DNA of 64,000 bases, from contig NZ_CP102798.1 in NCBI RefSeq assembly GCF_028356935.1, positions 3,534,001-3,598,000 of the forward strand, in the 5' to 3' direction. This DNA comes from Lysinibacillus sp. OF-1 (GTDB lineage Bacteria > Bacillota > Bacilli > Bacillales_A > Planococcaceae). The translations under genes were made by a program, and so were the position numbers. How positions within the stretch are numbered: position 1 is the stretch's first letter; the number at the start of each line of letters is the position of its first letter. The notes under the pieces are model-generated. The model saw only the letters and a program-made list of their open reading frames with translations. It ran no database searches and had not been told where the DNA came from. This document shows, in pieces, positions 51,855 through 64,000 of this stretch.

Positions 51855-51888
51855 AAAAAAGCGTGCTTCATATGAAGACACGCTTTTC
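51855..51888 (-). terminator. Terminator after the M29-like gene
   Basis: AAAAGCGTG pairs with CACGCTTTT around a self-complementary CTTCATATGAAG; a T run follows on the minus strand. Confidence 0.85.
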
Positions 51889-51889
51889 C

Positions 51890-52813
51890 TTAGATGACTT
51901 GCTGACCATCGAAATAGACAGTCGGGTTTTTCACAACGCAATCAATATGGACATCAGCCATATTTGCTCCACCGAATGGCTTATTACTACCAAATGCAAT
52001 ATGGATTGTCCCATACACCTTCTCATCCTCTAGTACATTACCACATAGGATGGCACTTTTATTCGCTCCGATGCCAAACTCTGCAATGATTCTACCATTT
52101 CCTTCACCAAGTAAAGCAAGTAATTGAGGACCATCAGGACCGATTGCCTCCTCTAAACGACCATTCGTGATTTTTAATAATAATGGCTCCTTTAAAACAC
52201 CTATATTAGCAATCGAACCATCCACTAAAATCTCTCCATTCGCAGATGTTTCTAGTGGTGCAATATAAGATTCTCCAGAAGGGATATTTCCATGCTCTCC
52301 AGCTTGGCGTATAACACCTGTAGAACGAATTCCCAAACGATTTTCTACACTAAACGTTAATGTATGCCCGTCTTTGTCAATGCGAATATTTTTTGCTGCA
52401 TCAAGTAAATGAACATATTTTCCTACCATATCTTCTATTTCCTGTGCATCTGCATGTAGCGCACCTTGCTCTAGCATATCCATTGTAACACCTGGCATTG
52501 TCGCCACTCGGCCACCCTGTTCACAGGCGTTTTTACGAGCAGCTGTATGTGTTAATGAGTGCGAGGTAATACAAAGCGTGACATCGACATTCGTCATCAG
52601 CGTCGAAACAGCTTGGATTGGCTCCTGTCCAGATTTATCTAATAGCGGCATTACCATTAACATTGTCTTCGCTGTAATAGATTGCCCAGCTTTATAAAAG
52701 ATTTGCGCAATATCTTGCTTATGAATATCTGTTAAGATTAACAGTGTTTCAGATGATTGAACATTTAGATTACCTTTTAGTATAGTAAGTGCAATATCAT
52801 GTAAATGTTGCAT
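51890..52813 (-). CDS. M29/COG2309-like metalloprotein
   Basis: A 307-residue protein of the aminopeptidase T (M29)/NicX-like superfamily. Candidate metal ligands are visible: Glu in GNIPSGESYIAP, Glu in IAEFGIG, His in GTIHIAFG, and His and Asp in DVHIDCV. It is shorter than true M29 aminopeptidases (about 410), so an aminopeptidase or a ring-cleaving dioxygenase-like role cannot be distinguished. It is last in the leftward cluster, 11 bases after the IclR regulator, with AAGGAG upstream. Confidence 0.65.
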   Translation of the reverse strand: MQHLHDIALTILKGNLNVQSSETLLILTDIHKQDIAQIFYKAGQSITAKTMLMVMPLLDKSGQEPIQAVSTLMTNVDVTLCITSHSLTHTAARKNACEQGGRVATMPGVTMDMLEQGALHADAQEIEDMVGKYVHLLDAAKNIRIDKDGHTLTFSVENRLGIRSTGVIRQAGEHGNIPSGESYIAPLETSANGEILVDGSIANIGVLKEPLLLKITNGRLEEAIGPDGPQLLALLGEGNGRIIAEFGIGANKSAILCGNVLEDEKVYGTIHIAFGSNKPFGGANMADVHIDCVVKNPTVYFDGQQVI

Positions 52814-52824
52814 AATAAAACTCC

Positions 52825-53586
52825 TTAATTAAAATTCAAATGATATCTACGAATAATTCCTTCTATTTCATTTCTCGCCTCTTTTAATGGTTCTAAAACT
52901 TCTGGAACACGTTGTTCCGTAAAACGATAGATTGGTCCAGAAACAGTAATGGAGGCTACGACCTGATCTTCACTATTGAATATGGGCATGGCAAGTGCCA
53001 GTACATCAACAGAATATTCACTGTTACTGAGTGCATAACCACACGCACGAATTTTTTCCAACTCTGCTCGTATTTCATTAGCATCTGTCATCGTATTATT
53101 CGTATAGGCTGTTAAAGGCTCGTCAATCACCTTGGCAATTTGCTCTTCATTTAGAAAAGCAAGCATCGAACGATAGGATGCCCCTACATAAAGTGGGGAT
53201 CTACTTCCTCTTGAAACGGTGAATTTCACCTTATTAACAGGTTCGGCTTTTAGTAATGTTAACGCTTCCAGTCCATTCAGTACAGTAAAAATAGCTGTTT
53301 CGCCTGTGACATCTTTTAATTTCTCAAGAACCGGCATACATAGCTGATCTATGTTTAATGAATCATACATATTCATACCAATCTCCCATAAAGCAATACC
53401 GAGTGAGTATTTTTTTGTTACAGGATCTTTTGTAATAAACCCATTATTTTCAAAGGTTTCAAGAATGCGATATAAATTTGTATGATTCATATTCATCGCC
53501 ATTGCTAACTCTCTTCCACCCCATATGGGCTTTTCTTTTGTAAACATTTTTAAAACCGCAATTGATAAATTTAACGTCTTTAGCAT
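52825..53586 (-). CDS. IclR-family transcriptional regulator
   Basis: A regulator of 253 residues: winged HTH (about 15-65, IWGGRELAMAMNMNHTNLYRILETF), then the IclR effector domain (ITGETAIF-like VTGETAIFTVLNG, GASYRSMLAFL, ISNSEYSVDV-like ALSNSEYSVDVLALAMPIF). It probably senses a product of the pathway. The start at 53586 has AAAGG nine bases upstream. It is in line with the M20 and ABC genes and is the natural candidate to bind the repeated element in the divergent promoter at 59.9-60.0 kb. Confidence 0.9.
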   Translation of the reverse strand: MLKTLNLSIAVLKMFTKEKPIWGGRELAMAMNMNHTNLYRILETFENNGFITKDPVTKKYSLGIALWEIGMNMYDSLNIDQLCMPVLEKLKDVTGETAIFTVLNGLEALTLLKAEPVNKVKFTVSRGSRSPLYVGASYRSMLAFLNEEQIAKVIDEPLTAYTNNTMTDANEIRAELEKIRACGYALSNSEYSVDVLALAMPIFNSEDQVVASITVSGPIYRFTEQRVPEVLEPLKEARNEIEGIIRRYHLNFN

Positions 53587-53618
53587 ATCTCTCATCCTTT
53601 TGATCTATTTATCTGTAC

Positions 53619-53669
53619 AAACGGCTGCAAATCTTTCTCTTAAAGGGGGAAATAAGCGACAGATTTAGC
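53619..53669 (-). repeat. Inverted repeat upstream of the IclR gene
   Basis: ACGGCTGC-AAATC (from 53619) pairs with GATTT-AGCAGCCGT (to 53669) around a long loop. It may be an attenuator or an operator; there is no T run. Confidence 0.45.
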
Positions 53670-53693
53670 AGCCGTCAGCACCTGATATCACTT

Positions 53694-53733
53694 TATCAAA
53701 AGTAAGAGAGTAGCTAATCTCTTACTTTTGATA
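53694..53733 (-). terminator. Strong hairpin overlapping the M20 stop codon
   Basis: A perfect 16-bp stem (TATCAAAAGTAAGAGA 53694-53709 with 53718-53733, 8-base loop) includes the stop codon of the M20 gene. The tail on the minus strand is not T-rich, so it may be an RNA-stability element or weak attenuator within the operon. Confidence 0.65.
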
Positions 53734-54990
53734 TAGGAAATCAACAGCAGCAGTAATATATACTTTTGCACAGCGTACGATATCCTCAACACGCACTTTT
53801 TCATTGTAACCATGAATACTTGGTAAATAGGCTGGGCCGTACTGCAATACAGGAATATTATATTGTCTGAAATGTCGAGCATCACTACTTGCCCATTGCA
53901 TAACGCCATATGCCTCTTGCCCTGTTACAAATGAAATATTTTCCACAATGGATTGGCATACAGGATTTTCGGCAGGCGTATAATTTGCTACACTTTTGAA
54001 GCCAAAACGTTTGATTGAATAATCGATAGCCAAACCATCTAGTTTATGTTTCAAAATTTCTGTTACTTCTTCTTGTGTAATACCGAATGGTAAGCGACAA
54101 TCGACCTGAACCTTGCAATAATCTGGGATTACGTTGGACTTCGTACCTCCCTCAATTGTACCAATATTTACAGTAATTTTCTCTAAAACTTCTTGATATT
54201 TCAAACGATCTTTTTCCACCTCACGCATGTATTTTTTAGATACCTCGATAAGTGGCAGTACCTCTTCTGGGATCGTAATTTCCAAATCCCATAGTGTACG
54301 AATCTCTTGAATAGCTCGAATGGCATCGACAATAGCATTTCTCCCAGCTAAAGGTGAGAGGCTTCCATGTCCAGGTTCCCCACGAACCTCTAATTCAAAC
54401 CAATAAGAACCCTTTTGCCCAATGGTTGGATTTAGCGGTGAAGAAGGCTCAGCGATTAAGCAACCATCTCCTTGCACAAAACCTCGCTCTAACAACCACG
54501 GAACACCAAATTCGCCGCCTGTTTCTTCATCTGGCACAATCGCCAATGTTAGTTTCCCTGGTAATTCAATATTCAATTTCTTTAGTAGCTTTGTTGCAAA
54601 AATAATACCAGCTAAACCAGCTTTCATATCACTTGCACCACGGCCCAGCATCCAGCCATCCTTCACCTCCCCTGAAAATGGATTGAATTCCCACTTTGAT
54701 AAATCACCAACAGGAACAACATCTGTATGACCACAATAAATGAGTTCCTTGCCCTCACCACTCCCAATAGAAGCTACTAAATTAAACATTTTATCTGCAG
54801 CTTCGTATTTTTGATAAGTAATGCCAACATCCTGTAAATAGTTTTCGATAAAAGCTGTTATTTCAGTCGTATCTCCTGGAGGATTGACACTAGGAATTTG
54901 AATGAGTTTCGAACAAAATGCAATCAGTTCATCTTGATGCTTTTCAACTTCCTCTAATAATTGCGCTTTGAGTGCTTGTAAATCATTCAT
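53722..54990 (-). CDS. M20-family deacylase/peptidase (ArgE/DapE/ACY1)
   Basis: A 422-residue zinc hydrolase. Metal and catalytic residues are visible: H88 and D90 in YCGHTDVVPVGD, Asp in GRGASDMKAG, Glu-Glu in PDEETGGEFG, and the final His in LPSIHGYNEKV. It resembles ArgE/DapE enzymes that remove acyl groups from amino acids or cleave dipeptides. The start at 54990 overlaps the DUF1177 stop by eight bases and has AAAGAGG upstream, so the two are coupled. Its substrate is presumably what the adjacent ABC importer brings in. Confidence 0.88.
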   Translation of the reverse strand: MNDLQALKAQLLEEVEKHQDELIAFCSKLIQIPSVNPPGDTTEITAFIENYLQDVGITYQKYEAADKMFNLVASIGSGEGKELIYCGHTDVVPVGDLSKWEFNPFSGEVKDGWMLGRGASDMKAGLAGIIFATKLLKKLNIELPGKLTLAIVPDEETGGEFGVPWLLERGFVQGDGCLIAEPSSPLNPTIGQKGSYWFELEVRGEPGHGSLSPLAGRNAIVDAIRAIQEIRTLWDLEITIPEEVLPLIEVSKKYMREVEKDRLKYQEVLEKITVNIGTIEGGTKSNVIPDYCKVQVDCRLPFGITQEEVTEILKHKLDGLAIDYSIKRFGFKSVANYTPAENPVCQSIVENISFVTGQEAYGVMQWASSDARHFRQYNIPVLQYGPAYLPSIHGYNEKVRVEDIVRCAKVYITAAVDFLYQK

Positions 54991-55936
54991 GTGTATATAC
55001 CTCTTTTCCTTTCGTTTGTAGATGATGCATGCTTCCATATAAATTTTTCATATGTGTAAACTGCTTTTCGTCAAAGAAGGAACATTTATGAGCTCCATAC
55101 GTTTTTGCTACTTCTAACACAAATCGAACTACATTTTCTACATCTGTTACATGTGTGGCGCCTGTTGCACAGCCTGCCACGACAGATTCTGTTGTGATAG
55201 CCACACCTACAACAGGGCTTGTTGTTGCCACAGCTGGTTGTAAAATACTATTAATATGGAATAAACCATTGCCATATGGTGTAATGTCTTGCATGGTAAT
55301 CGGTAGTACAACTGGAGAAATTCCTGCTGCTTGTGTGTAAACATGCAATAAATCATCACTGATTTTTAATATGTAACCTTCTTTGACTGTTGGCGTAATG
55401 GCAAACCCTTTATGGTTACATACTTGATTGCCTTTCGTTGTATCGATTGATAGAATGGCATCCATTGTTTCATCCACTTCATTTTCGTTCATGACACTAA
55501 TATCCACTGGAGAGTTCATAAATGGCACTGGCTCATGTGGCAAAGTGGGTGCTGTTGGACAAATATGCGTTGAGAAAATAACATCTCCTTCTAACTGATC
55601 ACCCTTTAACGCCATATCAATGGCTTTGGCTGCACCTGCCATACATGCTAGTGCTCCATCTCCATCTGATACAAAGCCTGTCATTTCAGGACGTGCTCCA
55701 ATACCACCGAGACGACCAATAATTCCTAACGTCGGTGCCTGACCACCAGAGGATTTTCCTTGCTTTCCTTTCACTAGTACACGCACAAAATCCGTTGAGC
55801 CACTTTCACCTTTAATCGTTTTGATCTTCACATCTGCTGTTGGATCAATGCTGTGTAAATAGGCTTTAATCGTTTCTCCGTTAACATGGAAATTATCCAT
55901 TACCTCGTATAATTCAATAACATGCTTCAATGACAT
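54983..55936 (-). CDS. DUF1177 family protein
   Basis: A 317-residue protein that I recognise as DUF1177 (no known function). It is Gly- and Ala-rich in the middle (GIIGRLGGIGARPEMTGFVSDGDGALACMAGAAKA), has conserved His/Pro stretches (STHICPTAPTLPHEPVPFM) and conserved acidic residues (MNENEVDETMDAILSIDTTKGN). There is no signal peptide or membrane segment. It sits between the ABC ATPase and the M20 gene, coupled to the latter. The family tends to occur beside AroM-like and peptidase genes; here an AroM gene begins at the right edge of the window. Confidence 0.78.
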   Translation of the reverse strand: MSLKHVIELYEVMDNFHVNGETIKAYLHSIDPTADVKIKTIKGESGSTDFVRVLVKGKQGKSSGGQAPTLGIIGRLGGIGARPEMTGFVSDGDGALACMAGAAKAIDMALKGDQLEGDVIFSTHICPTAPTLPHEPVPFMNSPVDISVMNENEVDETMDAILSIDTTKGNQVCNHKGFAITPTVKEGYILKISDDLLHVYTQAAGISPVVLPITMQDITPYGNGLFHINSILQPAVATTSPVVGVAITTESVVAGCATGATHVTDVENVVRFVLEVAKTYGAHKCSFFDEKQFTHMKNLYGSMHHLQTKGKEVYTHE

Positions 55937-55986
55937 AATCAGTCCGCTCCTTTTTACTTCTATAATTTATTCAATTACTTTCTGCT

Positions 55987-56994
55987 CTAAGTCGTCGACA
56001 CTTCTTGCTGTATCGACGAAAATAAATGACAAGAAACTTGATGTGTAGCTGTCACAGTATCAAGTGTCGGTTGGACGTCTGCACATTTGTCTGTAGCAAA
56101 ACGACAACGCTTGTGGAATGCACAGCCACTCGGTGGATTTACTGGACTGGGAACATCTCCAGATAAAATAATACGGTCCTTTTTATCAAAGGGATTTTCC
56201 TTAGGAATTGCCGATAATAAGGCTTGTGTGTAGGGATGTTGAGGGTTCTCATAAATTTCCTTATATGTCCCGATTTCCACAATTTTACCCAAGTACATGA
56301 CGGCAATCCGATCACACATATAATTCACAACATTTAAATCATGTGAAATAAAAATATATGTTAAACCGAAGTCTCTCTGTAAGTCTTTTAATAGATTGAT
56401 TACCTGTGCTTGTACAGAAACATCTAATGCTGAAACAGGTTCATCGCATACAACAATATCTGGATTAAGCGCAAGGGCACGAGCAATATTGATACGTTGT
56501 CTTTGTCCCCCAGAAAATTCATGTGGATGGCGCTTTGCATGATAAGCACTTAATCCTACTGTTTCAAGTAATTCAATAACACGCTTTTTACGTGATGCTT
56601 CATCACCAATACCATGGATGACTAATGGCTCAGCAATGAGATATTCAATCGTTTTTCGAGGATCGAGTGATGCATATGGATTTTGGAAAACCATTTGTAT
56701 CGACTTTCGAGCAGAGCGAATATCCTTTGTATTTAAGCTTGCTAAATCCGTACCCTTAAACTCTACGATTCCCTCTGTTGGAGAAATCAGCTGGTTGATT
56801 AAACGAGCAACCGTCGATTTCCCACAACCTGATTCACCTACAATCCCAAGTGTTTCGCCCTTATATAATTCAAAACTGACGCCATCTACTGCTTTCACAA
56901 ATTGTGTTGATTTTTTAAAAGGGATTGAACTTTTAATGGGAAAATGCTTTTTTAAATTACTTACCTTTAAAACAAGTTCATTGTGCTGTTGCAT
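55987..56994 (-). CDS. ABC ATPase, DppF type
   Basis: A 335-residue ATPase. GESGCGKST (Walker A), [27 protein letters not shown] (Walker B) and SHDLNVVNYM are intact; the C-terminal CAFHKRCRFATDKC is the family Cys pattern. The start at 56994 has AAGGAGGG upstream, inside the previous gene, overlapping it by 17 bases; a start at 57021 is unlikely. It is the fourth gene of the leftward ABC operon. Confidence 0.92.
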   Translation of the reverse strand: MQQHNELVLKVSNLKKHFPIKSSIPFKKSTQFVKAVDGVSFELYKGETLGIVGESGCGKSTVARLINQLISPTEGIVEFKGTDLASLNTKDIRSARKSIQMVFQNPYASLDPRKTIEYLIAEPLVIHGIGDEASRKKRVIELLETVGLSAYHAKRHPHEFSGGQRQRINIARALALNPDIVVCDEPVSALDVSVQAQVINLLKDLQRDFGLTYIFISHDLNVVNYMCDRIAVMYLGKIVEIGTYKEIYENPQHPYTQALLSAIPKENPFDKKDRIILSGDVPSPVNPPSGCAFHKRCRFATDKCADVQPTLDTVTATHQVSCHLFSSIQQEVSTT

Positions 56995-58000
56995 TAAAAA
57001 TTCCCTCCTTCCTTGCGACAATTTGATTTTTCGCTTGTAAATGGCAGGCTACAAAATGATTGTCCTGCACTTCCACTAAGTCGGGTACTGTATGACGACA
57101 AATATCTGTTGCTAAAGGGCAACGTGATGAAAAGTGACAGCCGCTATGTGGCATTGTTAAATCCGGTGGACTACCTGGAATGGCCGGCAATCTTTGTTGC
57201 TCCTGTGTGCCCATTGTAATTTGAGACTCTAATAATCCCCACGTATAAGGATGTAAAGGTTTTTCATAGAGCTGTCTTGTTGTAGTCGACTCAACTGTTC
57301 GACCTGCATACATAACATTTACTTTGTCACATAACTCCCAAACCACACCTAAATCGTGTGTAATCATAATGATGGCTGTATCATGGTCTTGTTGTAATTT
57401 TTTCATTAAATCAAGAATTTGAGCTTGTACAGTTACATCCAGTGCAGTTGTTGGCTCATCGGCAATGAGTAGTTTCGGGTTACAAGCAAGAGCAATAGCA
57501 ATCATGACACGCTGACGCATGCCTCCTGAAAATTCGTGAGGATACATTTTTAATCGTTTCTCTGGCTCAGGAATACCAACCATTTTTAACATATCGACAG
57601 CTTTGATAGCGGCATCTTTCTTCGAGATCTTTTCATGTGCTTGGATGACTTCAATAATTTGATTGCCCACTGTTAATACAGGATTCAAACTTGTAATAGG
57701 ATCTTGGAAAATCATTGAAATATCATTACCTCGCACATTGCGCATTTCTTTTTCAGAAATGCCAATTAAATCACGACCATTAAAGTCAATTTTTCCATTC
57801 GTTATTTTTCCTGGCGGAGATGGAATTAAACGCATGAGAGCAGTGGCTGTAACACTTTTTCCCGACCCTGATTCTCCAACAATCCCTAGTGTTTCCTTCT
57901 TATTTAATTGTAAATTTACTCCATTGACAGCTTTCATTGTAGAGCCGCCACTTTTAAATTCTACTGTTAAATTTTCTACATCTAGTAAACGTTCAGTCAT
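56978..58000 (-). CDS. ABC ATPase, DppD type
   Basis: A 340-residue ATPase. Walker A GESGSGKS, signature [15 protein letters not shown], Walker [13 protein letters not shown] and the H-loop ITHD are present, plus the C-terminal Cys pattern [14 protein letters not shown]. The start at 58000 has GGGGGTGGAG upstream; an ATG at 58018 overlaps the previous stop. It is the partner of the following ATPase. Confidence 0.92.
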
Positions 58001-58017
58001 GACTCCACCCCCTTCCA

Positions 58018-58884
58018 TTAAACTTTCATTTTCGGATCTAACGCATCACGTAATCCATCTCCTAAAAGGTTAATACCAAGAACTGTTAATAAAATACAGA
58101 TTCCTGAAAATGTCGCCATTTGAGGATTTAATACTAAAAAATCTTTACCATCTTTTAAAATACTACCCCACGAAGCTGTTGGCGGTTGAACTCCTAATCC
58201 TAAAAAGCTCAGTGCCGCCTCCGAAATAATAGCGCCCGCTGTACTCATCGTTCCATAAACAATTAAAGGAGCTAAACAGTTCGGTAATATATGGCTAAAA
58301 ATAATTCGACTATGTGTAGCACCTAGAGAATGCGTCACTTCGATGAATTCTTCTTCTTTTACACTTAAAACCTGACCACGAACAAGTCTTGCGAACCCTG
58401 GAATGTTTGCAACACCAATAGCAACAATAACGTTGACAAGTCCTTGCCCTAATACCGTCATTAGTGTAATAGCAAGTAAAATGAATGGGAATGCAAAAAG
58501 ACCATCCATCGTACGCATAATGATCGAATCAATGCGACCACCGAAATACCCTGCCACTAACCCTAATAATGTTCCAAACACAGCTCCAAATAGCACCGCT
58601 GCAATGCCGACAATCATCGATATTTGTGTACCGTAAACTAAACGACTAAACAAATCACGTCCATAATTATCCGTTCCTAGCAAATGCCCTTCTGTGTTCA
58701 TTGGTAAAAATGATTTACCGACAATCATTTCATTTGGTGGATGGGTAGCAATCAATGGTGCAAAAATTGCAACAATGGCCATCAAGGTGACAATGACTAA
58801 CCCAATTGTCGCTAATTTATTTTTTAGCAACTTGCGCAACAACGTATTTCTTTTTCTTGTTTCATTGACGATTGCTTGAGTCAT
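58018..58884 (-). CDS. ABC permease, DppC type
   Basis: A 288-residue permease. [18 protein letters not shown] (about 72-89), the EAA loop [20 protein letters not shown] and the C-terminal [18 protein letters not shown] are DppC/OppC features. It follows the DppB gene by two bases and carries GGAGGG upstream. Confidence 0.92.
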
Positions 58885-58886
58885 TG

Positions 58887-59849
58887 TTATTTTTTCCCTC
58901 CATCCGATTCTAAATTGACCTTAGGATTGACAACTTTATAAAGCACGTCCACTACTAAGTTAACAAGTACAAAGATAAATGCGATGAAAATAACAGTACC
59001 TTGTACAACAACAAAATCACGTTTATCAATGGCATCTACAATTAGTCGCCCCATTCCAGGCCAACTAAAAATCGTTTCTGTTAAAACCGCTCCCCCCAGT
59101 AAATTGGATATCTGCATCCCTAATACCGTTAAAATAGGTGTTAGCGCATTTTTAAAGGCATGTTTACCAATCACTAAATATTCTTTAATGCCTTTAGAAC
59201 GAGCTGTTTTAATATAATCTTGCGAAATAACCTCTAACATGCTTGAACGGGTAATCCGTGCAAATGTCGCCATTGGAATCGTTGCTAATGCAAATGCTGG
59301 CAAAATTAAATGTTTCAAATAGGTCCATAGACCATCACTGATGTTGCCCATTCCAGTGGCTGGGAACCAACCAAGATTGACACTAAAGAATAAAACAAGC
59401 ATGATCCCCAACCAAAAAATGGGCATGGATACACCAACTAATGATACAAGCATGACAATATAATCAATGATTGTATTTTGCTTTCTAGCAGCTAATATTC
59501 CTGCTGGGATACCGACCACAACCGCTATAAACAAGGCTGCCAATGCTAGTATCACTGTGTTAGGGAATCTTTCTATAATAAGCCCGATGACAGACTCACT
59601 ATAAGAATAGGAATATCCTAAATTTAACTGTGCTAAGTCTCCTACATATGAAATAAATTGCGAAGGCATTGATTTATTTAATCCTAGCTCTTCTCTTAAA
59701 TTCTCTACATCTTCCACACTGGCTTGTGGCCCAAGCATTACTGAAGCTGGGTCACCTGGAATCATTCGCGTAATAATGAAGACGATGATTCCTACTACTA
59801 GCAGTGTCGGGATAAGGTTGACTAACCTTTTTAAAATAAATGAGCCCAT
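58887..59849 (-). CDS. ABC permease, DppB type
   Basis: A 320-residue permease with six predicted segments. ILKRLVNLIPTLLVVGIIVF, MIPGDPASVMLGPQAS and the EAA loop DYIKTARSKGIKEYLVIGKH are standard for DppB/OppB. It is first in the leftward operon, with AAAAGGAGG upstream, and divergent from its binding lipoprotein. Confidence 0.92.
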   Translation of the reverse strand: MGSFILKRLVNLIPTLLVVGIIVFIITRMIPGDPASVMLGPQASVEDVENLREELGLNKSMPSQFISYVGDLAQLNLGYSYSYSESVIGLIIERFPNTVILALAALFIAVVVGIPAGILAARKQNTIIDYIVMLVSLVGVSMPIFWLGIMLVLFFSVNLGWFPATGMGNISDGLWTYLKHLILPAFALATIPMATFARITRSSMLEVISQDYIKTARSKGIKEYLVIGKHAFKNALTPILTVLGMQISNLLGGAVLTETIFSWPGMGRLIVDAIDKRDFVVVQGTVIFIAFIFVLVNLVVDVLYKVVNPKVNLESDGGKK

Positions 59850-59876
59850 CTTATTAAGACCTCCTTTTCATTATTA

Positions 59877-59899
59877 GAATCAGTGGTTCATATTGTGAA
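59877..59899 (-). promoter_or_regulatory. Repeated operator element, copy 1
   Basis: A 23-base element ending in GGTTCATATTGTGAA, almost identical (21 of 23) to copy 2. Its right part TTCATATTGTGAA is a near-palindrome. It lies at the predicted start of the leftward transcript, a repressor position, 28 bases before the permease ATG. Confidence 0.7.
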
Positions 59900-59906
59900 T
59901 AACCAC

Positions 59907-59936
59907 ATACTACACCATGTGATAATTATTTGTAAA
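59907..59936 (-). promoter_or_regulatory. Promoter of the leftward ABC operon
   Basis: Minus strand: TTTACA (59936-59931), 18-base spacer, TAGTAT (59912-59907), next to operator copy 1. Confidence 0.55.
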
Positions 59937-60008
59937 TATATTTTTTCTGAATTTTTTTAATTTTATATTTACTTTCTGTTTACAAATGTGCTAATTTTAA
60001 TTCGAACC

Positions 60009-60014
60009 TATCAT
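60009..60014 (+). promoter_or_regulatory. Possible -10 of the binding-protein gene
   Basis: TATCAT differs from TATAAT in one base and lies just before operator copy 2. No good -35 is spaced correctly, so activation may be needed. Confidence 0.4.
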
Positions 60015-60018
60015 TTTT

Positions 60019-60041
60019 GAATCAACGGTTCATATTGTGAA
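60019..60041 (+). promoter_or_regulatory. Repeated operator element, copy 2
   Basis: Same 23-base element and same orientation as copy 1, 142 bases away, 24 bases before the lipoprotein ATG. It also contains a GAATCAACGGTTC half with GAA/TTC symmetry. The IclR-family protein of this cluster is the likely binder. Confidence 0.7.
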
Positions 60042-60065
60042 ACAAAATAAAGGAGGCTTATGCAG

Positions 60066-61667
60066 ATGAAGAAGATAAACGTAAAAAAACCTTTACTACT
60101 ACTCTTTTTAACTTTATTAATTGGTGTTTTAGCAGCTTGTGGTGGGAACACAGAAAAAAGTAATTCTTCAAATGAAAAAGATGGAGAAGTCACTTCAGGT
60201 GGCAAATTAAATGTTGGTCTTTCAGCCAATGCCAAAACATTTGACCCTATCAAATATACAGGGGTTTATGAATCGCAAGTTATGCGTCAAATGGGTGATA
60301 CTTTAGTTGTTTATAACAAAGATCTATCAGATATCATCCCCTCTTTAGCAACAGAATGGAAAGTGTCAGATGATATGTTAGTCTATACGTTCAAATTACG
60401 TGAGGGTGTGAAATTCCAAAAGGGGCAATACCAGGATGGCCGTGAAATGACAGCGGAAGATGTGAAATATTCTTTAGAGCGCTCCGCCAAAGAATCCGCT
60501 ATGAATCGTTTAAGTGGTGTGACAGAAGTTAAAGTGTTGTCAGATTATGAAATAGAAATTCACTTAACTACACCGAATGCTGCCCTTCTTGCTATGCTAA
60601 CGGATGCAGGAAATATCATTATTCCAAAAGAAGAGGTTGAAGGCTGGGGCGATAACTTCTCAGAACACTTCATTGGTACAGGCCCATTCCAGTTAACAGA
60701 ATGGAAAAAAGACCAAGAAGTAAAACTAGTTCGCCATGACAATTATTGGGGTGAAAAACCTCACGTTGATAATTTATCCATGAAGTTTATCTCCGATCAA
60801 AATATGATGACAAATGCATTACGTTCTGGTGACATAGATATTGCCATGGATGTCAAAGGCCAAAACAGAGAAATTATTAACCAAGATAGCAACCTTGAGC
60901 TTTTAACGAATCCAGGTTTATCTATTGTTTATCTTGACCTTAACAACAAAGTTGGTCCGACTGCTGACAAACGTGTTCGCGAGGCACTTTATATGGCAAC
61001 AAATGTTGAGGAAATCATTTCTGGTGTTAACCAATGGGGTGGCGGTGATGTTTCTTATTTACCATTACCACCAGGTTCATGGGGATATGATAAATCATTA
61101 GTTGATTTAGTACCAAAATATAATCCAGAAGAAGCAAAAAAATTGCTAGCAGAGGCTGGTTATCCTGATGGCTTCAAAACAGAGATTTATGTATCAGAAG
61201 CACGTGTGCCTTACGCAACGATTTTCCAAAGTCAATTAAAGAAAAACTTAAACATTGATGTGGAAATTAAAGTGCTTGAATGGGGTACTTACAGTGATAC
61301 TGTTGCAAAAGGGAACGCTCCAATGAATATTGGTGGCTGGACTTGGTATCCAGATCCTTATTTCTTCCTATATCAATTATTCCACACAAATCAAATCGGT
61401 GCGTTAGGTAATGGGAAAGGCTATAGTAACCCAGAGGTAGATAAATTATTAGAGCGTGCCGTATCTGAAACAGTGGTACAGGAAGAACGTGCTAAATTAT
61501 ACCAAGAAGCATTAAAACTGATTTTAGCAGATGTTCCGCGTATTGAATTAGAAGCAACACAAACCGTTGCAGGTGTAAACAAAAAAGTACAGGGCTTTGA
61601 GGTTTCTACTGACAACTCCGTACAAATTGTACATCCAAACGGTACGAACGTATCCATTTCTAAATAA
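60066..61667 (+). CDS. ABC transporter substrate-binding lipoprotein (SBP family 5)
   Basis: A 533-residue binding protein. The signal peptide ends in LAACGGN (lipobox LAAC), so it is anchored outside the membrane. SLATEWKVSDDMLVYTFKLREGVKFQ and GTGPFQLTEWKKDQEV are family-5 features. An ATG two codons earlier (60060) sits too near GGAGG, so 60066 is used. It serves the divergent permease/ATPase operon. A hairpin after the gene probably sets a higher level for it than for the following enzymes. Confidence 0.9.
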   Translation: MKKINVKKPLLLLFLTLLIGVLAACGGNTEKSNSSNEKDGEVTSGGKLNVGLSANAKTFDPIKYTGVYESQVMRQMGDTLVVYNKDLSDIIPSLATEWKVSDDMLVYTFKLREGVKFQKGQYQDGREMTAEDVKYSLERSAKESAMNRLSGVTEVKVLSDYEIEIHLTTPNAALLAMLTDAGNIIIPKEEVEGWGDNFSEHFIGTGPFQLTEWKKDQEVKLVRHDNYWGEKPHVDNLSMKFISDQNMMTNALRSGDIDIAMDVKGQNREIINQDSNLELLTNPGLSIVYLDLNNKVGPTADKRVREALYMATNVEEIISGVNQWGGGDVSYLPLPPGSWGYDKSLVDLVPKYNPEEAKKLLAEAGYPDGFKTEIYVSEARVPYATIFQSQLKKNLNIDVEIKVLEWGTYSDTVAKGNAPMNIGGWTWYPDPYFFLYQLFHTNQIGALGNGKGYSNPEVDKLLERAVSETVVQEERAKLYQEALKLILADVPRIELEATQTVAGVNKKVQGFEVSTDNSVQIVHPNGTNVSISK

Positions 61668-61674
61668 TTAACTG

Positions 61675-61706
61675 GAAAAGTGGAGATGCTTGTCTCCGCT
61701 TTTCTC
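61675..61706 (+). terminator. Attenuating terminator after the binding-protein gene
   Basis: GAAAAGTGGAGA pairs with TCTCCGCTTTTC (one G-U pair) and a short T-rich tail follows. It lies between the lipoprotein and the amidohydrolase genes, so partial read-through is expected. Confidence 0.65.
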
Positions 61707-61729
61707 TTCATAAGGAGAGATCTAATTCC

Positions 61730-62800
61730 ATGACTCGATATATAAATGGACTTGTTTTTAACTCTGAGACACGTAGCTTTAACAAACAGTCATTTCAAGT
61801 ACAGGGGCAATACTTTGCTCCATCTTCTACAACGTCTGAAATAGACATCGATTTAGATGGCTATTATATTACACCTGGCCTTATCGATAGTTGTTCACAA
61901 ATTGGCTTAGCTGAAATAGGGATTCGTTGGGAGGGAGATGATAGCTATGAATTTGACTCACATCTGGACTATTCTGTAGTTGATGGCATTTATCCATTCG
62001 ATGCTGCCTTTCAAAAAGCTATCTCCCATGGGGTGACAGCCTCTCATATCGTTCCCTCCCCTAAAAGCTTGGTCGGTGCAAAAACAGCTATTATTCATCA
62101 TACACATACAACGGTTGATGAAATGGTCATTGCCAAAGATATTGCTTATTCCTTCTCCATTGGACACCAAGCAAAAAGCACTTTTTTCGCTGAAAGGAGA
62201 AAGCCACTAACCCGTATGGGGATTGCCAAAATTTTAAGAGAAACATTGCAACAGATTCAGCAGCAAGAACCTTTAATTAAGAAAATTGTCATACGGGCAC
62301 ATAAAGCTGTGGATCTTGAATTCATTGACCGTCTTCAACAAGAGTTTAAGTCTACTTTTGATTTTCATATTATTCACGGCACTGAAGCTTCACTGCTTCA
62401 AGGGACATCCTTCAATACGGTCATTGCTGGCCCAACGTTTCGATATATCGAGCATAACGAGATGATGGCATTATCACCAAAACTATACCGCCAGTTGTCC
62501 CAACAACATACTCCGTTTGTTTTTTGTACGGATCATCCTGTTAGTAGCACCTCTCACCTAACATTAGAAGGTTGCTTAGCTGTAAGAGAAGGGCTGACAC
62601 GTCAGGATGTTCTGTATGCACTAACAACAGGAGCTGCTAATTTCCTTGGAATCGCTCATAAAACTGGCACTATTCGTGATGGCCTTCTAGCTGATTTTGT
62701 CATATGGGATAAGCATCCATTAAATTTAGATGCACAGGTTGTAGCTACTTTTATTAAAGGAACAAAAGTTTATGCAAGGGAAGAAGGGTTCTCAGAATGA
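61730..62800 (+). CDS. Amidohydrolase-family protein lacking the HxH metal motif
   Basis: A 356-residue protein of the imidazolonepropionase-like amidohydrolase group (COG1228). Where active members have GLIDxHxH, it reads GLIDSCSQIG: Cys55 and Gln57 replace the two His. FHIIHGTE and FCTDHP near the C-terminal side remain. The frame is open and has a strong ribosome site (AAGGAG), so it is not a decayed gene. It overlaps its intact paralogue as ATGA. It may be a regulatory or structural partner in a heteromer, or use a single metal. Confidence 0.8.
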   Translation: MTRYINGLVFNSETRSFNKQSFQVQGQYFAPSSTTSEIDIDLDGYYITPGLIDSCSQIGLAEIGIRWEGDDSYEFDSHLDYSVVDGIYPFDAAFQKAISHGVTASHIVPSPKSLVGAKTAIIHHTHTTVDEMVIAKDIAYSFSIGHQAKSTFFAERRKPLTRMGIAKILRETLQQIQQQEPLIKKIVIRAHKAVDLEFIDRLQQEFKSTFDFHIIHGTEASLLQGTSFNTVIAGPTFRYIEHNEMMALSPKLYRQLSQQHTPFVFCTDHPVSSTSHLTLEGCLAVREGLTRQDVLYALTTGAANFLGIAHKTGTIRDGLLADFVIWDKHPLNLDAQVVATFIKGTKVYAREEGFSE

Positions 62801-63939
62801 TTATTTATCATCATGCAAAGTTTCTCACAGTCAATGAACAAAATGATATTTTTGAACAGTTATGGATCGAAGATGGACGTATAGTCTATGTCGGTCCAGC
62901 CAAAGATTATCCTCCTCAAGCAGAGTTAGTCGATCTTCAGGGAGCTTATGTCACACCAGGCTTAATTGATATTCACGCCCATGTTGGGACATGGGCAGAG
63001 GTTACTGAAGACATTAATGATGCTAATGAATATAGCGAGCCCTTTACACCTCTTATGCATGCTCTAGATAGTGTAGATATCCGACACTTTTCCTTCCAAC
63101 ATGCGTTAGAAGGTGGTGTGACGACTGTACAAACTGGTCCAGGTAGTGCCAATGTCATTGGGGGCATTTGGAGTATTCTTAAAACAGCAGGGCCCACTCT
63201 TACCTCTCGTGTTTTAGTAGAACGAAGCGGCTTAAAGGGCGCGTTAGGAGAAAATCCAAAGAATGTTTTTGGCAATCAATACAAACGAAAGCCAATGACT
63301 CGCATGGCCATTGCCCAGCTTTTACGTGATGGTTTCCAACGTGCAAGTCAACTGAATGAACAACAACGGGCTGAGCAAATTAAACAAAATTCAGAGTTGC
63401 GTCCATTCATTGAAGTGCTACGAGGTGACATGCCCCTTCGCCTTCATTGTCACAGAGCAGATGACATTATGACAGCTATAAGAATTGCTAAAGAATTTAA
63501 TGTGAAGCTCCATTTAGAGCATTGCACAGAAGGCTATTTAATGGTCGATGCGGTTAAAAACAGTGGCTTTCATGCAACACTTGGGCCCTATATGTTAACG
63601 CCATCTAAATATGAAACACGTAATTCTACACCGGCGATTGCAGCTATTTTTAAAGAGCATAATATCCCATTTGCCATCATGACAGACCATCCATTCGTAC
63701 CAATTCAGTACTTAAAATATTGTGCTACTGAAGCTATTCGCTATGGTTTAGATGAGGACACCGCCTTAAAAAGTATTACAATAAATGCCGCTAAGCTCGT
63801 ACAGCTAGATCACCGCATTGGCAGCCTTGAGGAAGGCAAGGATGCTGATTTTGTTGTTTGGTCACACCCTATTTTTGAAACAGAAGCAAAGGTCTTACAA
63901 ACGTATGTCAATGGACAAAAATATTACGAAGCGGAGTGA
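62797..63939 (+). CDS. Amidohydrolase (COG1228, imidazolonepropionase-like)
   Basis: A 380-residue metal-dependent hydrolase. H60 and H62 in GLIDIHAHVG, RLHCHRADD, LHLEHCTEGY and the catalytic Asp in IMTDHP are all present. Segment KPMTRMAIAQLLRDGFQ is shared with the upstream paralogue (KPLTRMGIAKILRETLQ). No signal peptide. Relatives cleave cyclic imides or peptide-like amides; the substrate here is unknown. It is translationally coupled to the paralogue. Confidence 0.85.
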   Translation: MIIYHHAKFLTVNEQNDIFEQLWIEDGRIVYVGPAKDYPPQAELVDLQGAYVTPGLIDIHAHVGTWAEVTEDINDANEYSEPFTPLMHALDSVDIRHFSFQHALEGGVTTVQTGPGSANVIGGIWSILKTAGPTLTSRVLVERSGLKGALGENPKNVFGNQYKRKPMTRMAIAQLLRDGFQRASQLNEQQRAEQIKQNSELRPFIEVLRGDMPLRLHCHRADDIMTAIRIAKEFNVKLHLEHCTEGYLMVDAVKNSGFHATLGPYMLTPSKYETRNSTPAIAAIFKEHNIPFAIMTDHPFVPIQYLKYCATEAIRYGLDEDTALKSITINAAKLVQLDHRIGSLEEGKDADFVVWSHPIFETEAKVLQTYVNGQKYYEAE

Positions 63940-63944
63940 GCTTA

Positions 63945-64000
63945 TTGAAACATTCAAAAATTGCCGTAGTCACAATTGGTCAAGCGCCTCGCAAAGATAT
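63945..64000 (+). CDS. AroM-family protein (partial, runs off the window)
   Basis: Only the first 18 codons are visible. The sequence KIAVVTIGQAPRKD is the start typical of AroM-family proteins, whose function is unknown and which may share the Asp/Glu racemase fold. A TTG start at 63945 with GGAG eight bases upstream is preferred; an in-frame GTG at 63936 overlaps the previous stop. It continues the rightward operon, next to two amidohydrolases. Confidence 0.75.
   Translation, partial: MKHSKIAVVTIGQAPRKD

Follow-up and report, generated by a model that had tools for sequence, protein, structure and literature searches.

Predicted uptake and breakdown of an amino-acid amide by a divergent gene cluster with DUF1177, AroM and an M29-like protein in Lysinibacillus sp. 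OF-1

What is the function of a gene cluster in which DUF1177 and AroM, two widely distributed protein families with no assigned function, are placed beside an oligopeptide-type importer, several putative hydrolases and an IclR-family regulator? This cluster is located at one end of a 64,000 nt stretch of the Lysinibacillus sp. OF-1 genome (contig NZ_CP102798.1, positions 3,534,001 to 3,598,000; from here on referred to as the window, with position 1 as its first letter). Judging from gene neighbours and predicted folds, it most likely serves to take up a cyclic or end-blocked amino-acid amide and to break it down in steps that include racemisation. The fuller reading, an inducible catabolic unit with Opp-type import, IclR control and stepwise hydrolysis and racemisation of a small alpha-amino-acid amide, is one we favour tentatively and hold at slightly less than even chances. 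That the genes serve a single pathway is plausible, its heart being DUF1177, AroM and the M29-like protein and not the two amidohydrolases (AH1 and AH2).

The cluster consists of 12 genes in two divergent units spanning 51890-64616, the last 616 bases lying outside the window, in a host genome of 4.71 Mb on a single contig. All named genes are open frames in the sequence and were assigned to families with Pfam, and ten of the proteins with NCBIfam in addition. The minus-strand unit reads, from the centre outwards, oppB, oppC, oppD, oppF, DUF1177, M20, iclR and M29-like, and the plus-strand unit solute-binding protein, AH1, AH2 and aroM. The features are as follows:

51855..51887, minus strand: terminator-like hairpin with a T run at the end of the minus-strand operon (read by eye)
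51890..52813, minus strand: M29-like metalloprotein, 307 aa (open frame, Pfam)
52825..53595, minus strand: IclR-family regulator (open frame, Pfam)
53691..53736, minus strand: strong hairpin lacking a T run, spanning the M20 stop codon and the bases after it (folding prediction)
53722..55038, minus strand: M20 (ArgE/DapE-type) hydrolase (Pfam; TIGR01910, 287.8 bits, cut-off 217.6)
54983..55936, minus strand: DUF1177 protein, predicted zinc-aminopeptidase fold (Pfam, structure model)
55987..57021, minus strand: OppF-type ATPase (Pfam, NCBIfam)
56978..58018, minus strand: OppD-type ATPase (Pfam, ABC_tran with oligo_HPY)
58018..58884, minus strand: OppC-type permease (Pfam, NCBIfam)
58887..59849, minus strand: OppB-type permease (Pfam, NCBIfam)
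59874..59899, no strand: operator-like repeat copy 1, TTCA-N5-TGAA dyad at 59887 (repeat search)
60016..60041, no strand: operator-like repeat copy 2, dyad at 60029 (repeat search)
60060..61667, plus strand: solute-binding protein, family 5 (Pfam, NCBIfam)
61730..62800, plus strand: AH1, amidohydrolase-family protein without the HxH metal motif (DSCSQIG; Pfam, alignment)
62797..63939, plus strand: AH2, amidohydrolase with HxH (DIHAHVG; Pfam, alignment)
63936..64000, plus strand: aroM, first 65 bases (Pfam; the gene runs to 64616 beyond the window, L015:13936-14616)

The catalogue of genes given by the original prediction was thus confirmed, as were its two tightly coupled operons: adjacent frames on the same strand are spaced by -56 to +126 bases, with 4-base overlaps at AH1/AH2 and AH2/aroM. 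Pfam matches were obtained to DUF1177 (443.5 bits), AroM (199.6 bits), M29 (PF02073, 39.6 bits, cut-off 27), IclR_C, M20 and, twice, Amidohydro. The importer is complete, with SBP_bac_5, two BPD_transp_1 permeases and two ABC_tran proteins with oligo_HPY making up an oligopeptide/dipeptide ABC importer set, and its position beside the hydrolases argues for import followed by hydrolysis. For M20 a start at about 54990 appears as likely as the annotated one. Just 3' of aroM, at L015:14640-14930, GC-rich inverted-repeat-like blocks were seen that by eye resemble an extragenic repeat.

When analysing the region between the two units, the shared repeated element of the original prediction was recovered as a 26-nt direct repeat with copies 88% identical, one lying 24 bases and the other 18 bases ahead of the divergent start codon next to it. 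Its 15-base core, GGTTCATATTGTGAA, occurs with at most one mismatch twice in the 4.71-Mb genome, both times in this intergenic region, while the reversed core, used as a control, has no occurrence in the same genome. The repeat contains a TTCA-N5-TGAA dyad; the bare dyad has five additional occurrences elsewhere in the window, so the specificity lies in the longer repeat. Two dyads are found in 12 of the 13 closely related loci (L016-L028) and one in L021, probably owing to the shorter stretch examined there (197 bases), and among the more distant loci L029-L035 one to three dyads stand at the same place in all seven (L036 was left out of the comparison, its binding-protein gene not being divergent). 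The same intergenic region carries dyads in Neobacillus, Peribacillus, Sporosarcina, Oceanobacillus and Lentibacillus. A repeat unique in the genome and dyads conserved in related genera are in line with a common import-and-hydrolysis unit. The IclR protein of the cluster may be a repressor acting at the repeats.

Two hairpins were noted in the minus-strand unit. For the hairpin over the M20 stop codon (16 pairs, -27 kcal/mol, z -7.55), 12 of the 13 close relatives (all but L022) have a predicted counterpart at that position, with sequence changes in L026-L028; it was not predicted in L029-L036, although other hairpins are found nearby in L033, L034 and L035. As it lacks a T run, it may control how much iclR-M29 is expressed relative to the upstream genes. 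A consensus terminator scan gave 10 sites against 13.6 expected from shuffles, and the hairpin at 51855..51887 was not among them, so that the terminator after M29 is a reading by eye.

To what extent the genes belong together was addressed in 398 genomes drawn evenly from the phylum of the window, with fragments of DUF1177 being counted. DUF1177 was found in 46 genomes and a strong AroM match in 41, with both in 36, DUF1177 only in 10, AroM only in five and neither in 347 (Fisher p 1.3e-36); the AroM set excludes four of 45 genomes whose matches are all weak (E 6.9e-7 or weaker), among them one genome with DUF1177. In 28 of the 36 genomes with both, the two genes are no more than 12 kb apart (in 27 of them no more than 3.4 kb), while in the remaining eight they are on different contigs (seven) or 44 kb apart (one). 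The M29-like family at large occurs in 110 of the 398 genomes, 30 of them with DUF1177. The closest M29 subfamily (at least 417 bits) was found in 20, of which 16 have DUF1177, all within 3.2 kb; this cut was chosen after the scores had been seen and the model was built from DUF1177-linked proteins, making closeness and linkage partly dependent. This co-occurrence of DUF1177 with AroM and with the M29 subfamily likewise points to uptake and hydrolysis in one pathway.

A wider scan of contigs, with one genome per species (84,980 species), revealed 217 relatives of DUF1177 by conserved peptide patterns, of which the best 80 loci were kept, a sample that leans to close relatives. Genes up to 9 kb away from DUF1177 were counted as neighbours and assigned by their best match to single seed proteins, with names checked by Pfam for one representative each, and the counts are lower bounds since some contigs end near DUF1177. 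AroM was found in 60 of the 80 loci, the solute-binding protein in 42, M29-like and Opp permeases in 41 each, M20 and IclR in 33 each, S-Me-THD (DUF917) in 25, PucR in 24, hydantoin racemase in 19, OPT and AH2-like in 18 each, AH1 in 16, NCS1 in nine, a family of about 300 residues in eight and hydantoinase A and nitrilase in six each. Over whole loci the numbers are 61 for AroM, 43 for M29, 38 for both and 14 for neither. DUF1177, AroM and M29 stand on one strand within ~5.5 kb in 19 loci, with hosts including Bacillota, Synergistota, Spirochaetota and Thermococcus, while in Lysinibacillus-type loci AroM is on the strand opposite to DUF1177 and M29. S-Me-THD precedes DUF1177 on the same strand by at most ~640 bases, also in 19 loci. 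The family of about 300 residues (L069:10843-11757) gave no match in Pfam or NCBIfam, and the genome of Paenibacillus MSJ-34 (G440) has a second DUF1177-AroM-M29 trio (L129) besides its Opp-type locus L036.

These counts bear on the view of a single uptake-hydrolysis unit, for which it had been set beforehand that DUF1177 and AroM occurring without their partners in most genomes would speak against it. The outcome is mixed. DUF1177, AroM and the M29 subfamily stay together, and the gene content and dyads kept across related genera agree with one unit, while the amidohydrolase pair, close to DUF1177 in just 16 loci, M20 and the Opp permeases are not constant partners; the order originally proposed, opening by the amidohydrolase followed by deacylation by M20, can thus describe this branch only. 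Nor is AroM wholly constant: when the 19 genomes of AroM-less loci were searched, an AroM match was found in seven and none in 12. At the extreme, the cluster could be a loose set of unrelated amide-using genes with a common importer and regulator and no single pathway. Gene content does differ by genus, as AH1 and M20 illustrate, and a quickly built tree of 79 DUF1177 proteins, with L094 omitted, requires at least 18 changes of transporter label against 37.8 in shuffles, meaning that transporter types are clustered yet repeatedly exchanged. We nevertheless consider such a loose set quite improbable given the linkage in the 398 genomes, a repeat confined to this intergenic region and the fact that all 13 Lysinibacillus and Metasolibacillus loci carry the same 12 genes.

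If one pathway is served, what kind of substrate do the neighbourhoods elsewhere suggest? Some DUF1177 loci look like hydantoin-use loci and others like peptide-use loci, and such neighbours are found in other phyla as well. L070 resembles the former, with racemase, NCS1 permease, nitrilase, DUF1177, AroM, M29, S-Me-THD, HyuA and HyuA. Hydantoin utilisation clusters combine hydantoinase, hydantoin racemase and carbamoylase. The Lysinibacillus cluster is alike in holding an amidohydrolase-family enzyme, a member of the racemase superfamily (AroM), an M20-type deacylase and an importer in one unit, and hydantoin racemase, HyuA, NCS1 permease and nitrilase adjoin DUF1177 in several loci. It differs in that AroM belongs to another Pfam family, in that the importer is of oligopeptide type and in that AH2 is far below hydantoinase-type models of NCBIfam (39.1 bits against the D-hydantoinase model, cut-off 393.25); among the 12 proteins of the cluster Pfam gave no Hydant_A match. 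To our knowledge, neither DUF1177 nor the M29-like protein is part of the known hydantoin utilisation system.

Genes of cyclodipeptide oxidase (CDO) type form a second link to ring amides. In Paenibacillus (L091) a run of PucR, racemase, OPT, S-Me-THD, DUF1177, AroM, M29 and a nitroreductase is followed by a CDO-A-type nitroreductase and CDO-B, and in the Thermococcus locus L064 the same gene set is followed, at the contig end, by a CDO-A-like frame (E 2.3e-16 against the L091 one), with CDO-B on another contig of that genome. The neighbour kinds at the DUF1177 locus are the same as those described in PMC11055893 for CDO clusters without CDPS, which are enriched in PF01177, DUF917, AroM, ABC dipeptide/oligopeptide and OPT transporters and many peptidase genes; AroM is there described as racemase-like and uncharacterised, and the term DUF1177 has no occurrence in that paper. 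The difference is that CDO-B was found in five of the 49 DUF1177 genomes searched, all from the set of 80 loci, and that the same-species genome G434 has no PF19585 match, leaving a cyclodipeptide-oxidase role for the present cluster unsupported. The original guess of a cyclic amide nonetheless agrees with the S-Me-THD/DUF917, hydantoin racemase, hydantoinase A, nitrilase and CDO-type neighbours found elsewhere, which together with the peptide-type ones are consistent with import and hydrolysis and keep a cyclic amide as a candidate substrate.

Structure prediction, proposed at the outset as a check on AroM and DUF1177, gave a fold for both. AroM was predicted to have the racemase fold of the Asp/Glu/hydantoin racemase superfamily, its Pfam family being separate from that of hydantoin racemases. 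In an alignment of 42 AroM proteins the cysteines C101 and C192 never vary, and HHalign (97.1%, E 7.8e-11) pairs them with two cysteines found in 18 neighbouring hydantoin racemases; both are presumably catalytic. AroM is accordingly classified, from sequence and model, as a two-cysteine enzyme of this superfamily with predicted racemase or isomerase activity. A single-cysteine enzyme like arylmalonate decarboxylase was considered and rejected in view of the two invariant, aligned cysteines.

The DUF1177 model (pLDDT 89.0, pTM 0.91) was placed by fold searches with the M28/M42/M17/M20 zinc aminopeptidases, at 9-17% identity in the first three matches, and this fold, together with the fold and cysteines of AroM, fits the import-and-hydrolysis view. 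D91, D93, H134, D165, D217 and H227 are invariant polar residues, and in the motif order compared by eye D91, D93 and D165 are kept, whereas Arg75 (79 of 79) and Thr123-His124 (79 of 79 and 78 of 79) occupy the positions of His and Glu-Glu in zinc peptidases. A homology to M42 suggested by motifs read by eye was not supported by HHalign, with a probability of 0.1 against the 20 longest frames from M42 loci, some of them not M42, and 0.8 against seven selected M42 sequences, the DUF1177 alignment being low in diversity (Neff 2.1). Could DUF1177 itself be the ring opener, with S-Me-THD, HyuA or the AH pair as accessories for different side chains? All other candidate ring-openers vary among DUF1177 loci, and a predicted metallohydrolase fold with many invariant polar residues would suit this role, but the constancy of DUF1177 is built into loci picked for DUF1177 and the Arg75 and Thr123-His124 replacements speak against it, making this an unlikely alternative.

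Within the genus, a DUF1177 match was found in 21 of 32 genomes, two of these with fragments only. In G017 (C9:171887-172195) both ends are left with the middle gone and in G031 (C16:33946-34074) the tail alone is left, which suggests recent loss within the genus; G001 has two full-length DUF1177 genes. A PubMed Central search retrieved DUF1177 as one single mention in the text covered, and PF06675 or pfam06675 in none of the papers listed.

In the M29-like protein, E181, E245, H271, H289 and D291 are invariant in 26 aligned rows. Both E181 and E245 fall on Glu residues of PepS and AmpS and H271 falls on a His of AmpS, while H289/D291 match His/Asp of a dioxygenase and, in a very weak stretch, of PepS; these positions are presumably the M29 metal ligands. 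The best score of the profile was on 2,5-dihydroxypyridine dioxygenase (E 1.6e-12). A dioxygenase role was rejected, as Glu245 stands, like in the M29 protein AmpS, at the aligned dioxygenase His, which we assume to be an iron ligand.

Comparison of the two amidohydrolases revealed that AH2 retains HxH in 17 of 17 copies while AH1 (L016:3137-4207 and orthologues) has Cys-Ser-Gln or Cys-Ser-Ser in its place in 16 of 16, the first metal His being replaced by Cys. In AH1 the first His of the second HxH is replaced as well, by Arg. For both, the best sequence match in PDB is the amidohydrolase 3ooq (E 1.2e-73 for AH2, E 1.5e-36 for AH1), from which AH1 differs by these changes. M20, whose best NCBIfam match is the ArgE/DapE subfamily, is a candidate N-carbamoyl amino acid amidohydrolase. 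The same enzymes could serve without any ring opening, as peptidases and acylases, together with M29-like and DUF1177, on a linear di- or tripeptide with D-residues or blocked ends (from cell-wall or protein turnover, for example) in which AroM epimerises a residue. Opp/Dpp-type permeases in about half of the 80 loci, a DUF1177 model nearest to the aminopeptidase fold, the M29-like residues aligned to peptidase ligands and a dipeptidase among the NCBIfam matches of AH2 (yet at 54.8 bits with a cut-off of 500) agree with this, while the hydantoin racemase, S-Me-THD/DUF917, NCS1-type permease and hydantoinase A found near DUF1177 are typical of the use of ring amides and not of linear peptides. 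We regard a linear substrate as a serious alternative, though a somewhat unlikely one.

For the reading preferred here, breakdown of a cyclic or end-blocked amide, the following course can be proposed. A dedicated Opp-type ABC importer would take in a small amide of alpha-amino acids, for which hydantoin, diketopiperazine and an N-carbamoyl or N-acyl amino acid or dipeptide are candidates, and IclR on the two repeat copies would keep both divergent operons repressed as long as the substrate is absent. AH2, with AH1 as a putative partner subunit, would open or trim the amide, AroM would invert the alpha carbon so that both stereoisomers are usable, and DUF1177, with its zinc-aminopeptidase fold and changed site, would with M29-like and M20 finish the cleavage to free amino acids. 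More speculative, and in our view rather improbable, is a general bacterial and archaeal salvage pathway for cyclised or damaged peptide ends (hydantoins, diketopiperazines), in which DUF1177 would be a new ring-opening metallohydrolase family with a rebuilt metal site, acting with AroM as a new racemase subfamily and a short M29-like enzyme; individual lineages would attach importers and helper hydrolases of their own, among them a heteromeric amidohydrolase in which one subunit is metal-deficient. The literature searches made here gave nothing on the breakdown of cyclised or stereochemically awkward peptide fragments, the relevant paper that they returned being the one on cyclodipeptide-oxidase clusters.

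These results place DUF1177 and AroM in a common setting that can be tested, and supply predicted folds and candidate catalytic residues. With an operator-like repeat that is unique and conserved, a reporter strain could be used to screen directly for the inducer and so for the class of substrate. If the proposal is true, it would show by what route bacteria and some archaea exploit peptide fragments that are cyclised or stereochemically awkward, and would provide enzyme candidates for the production of chiral amino acids.

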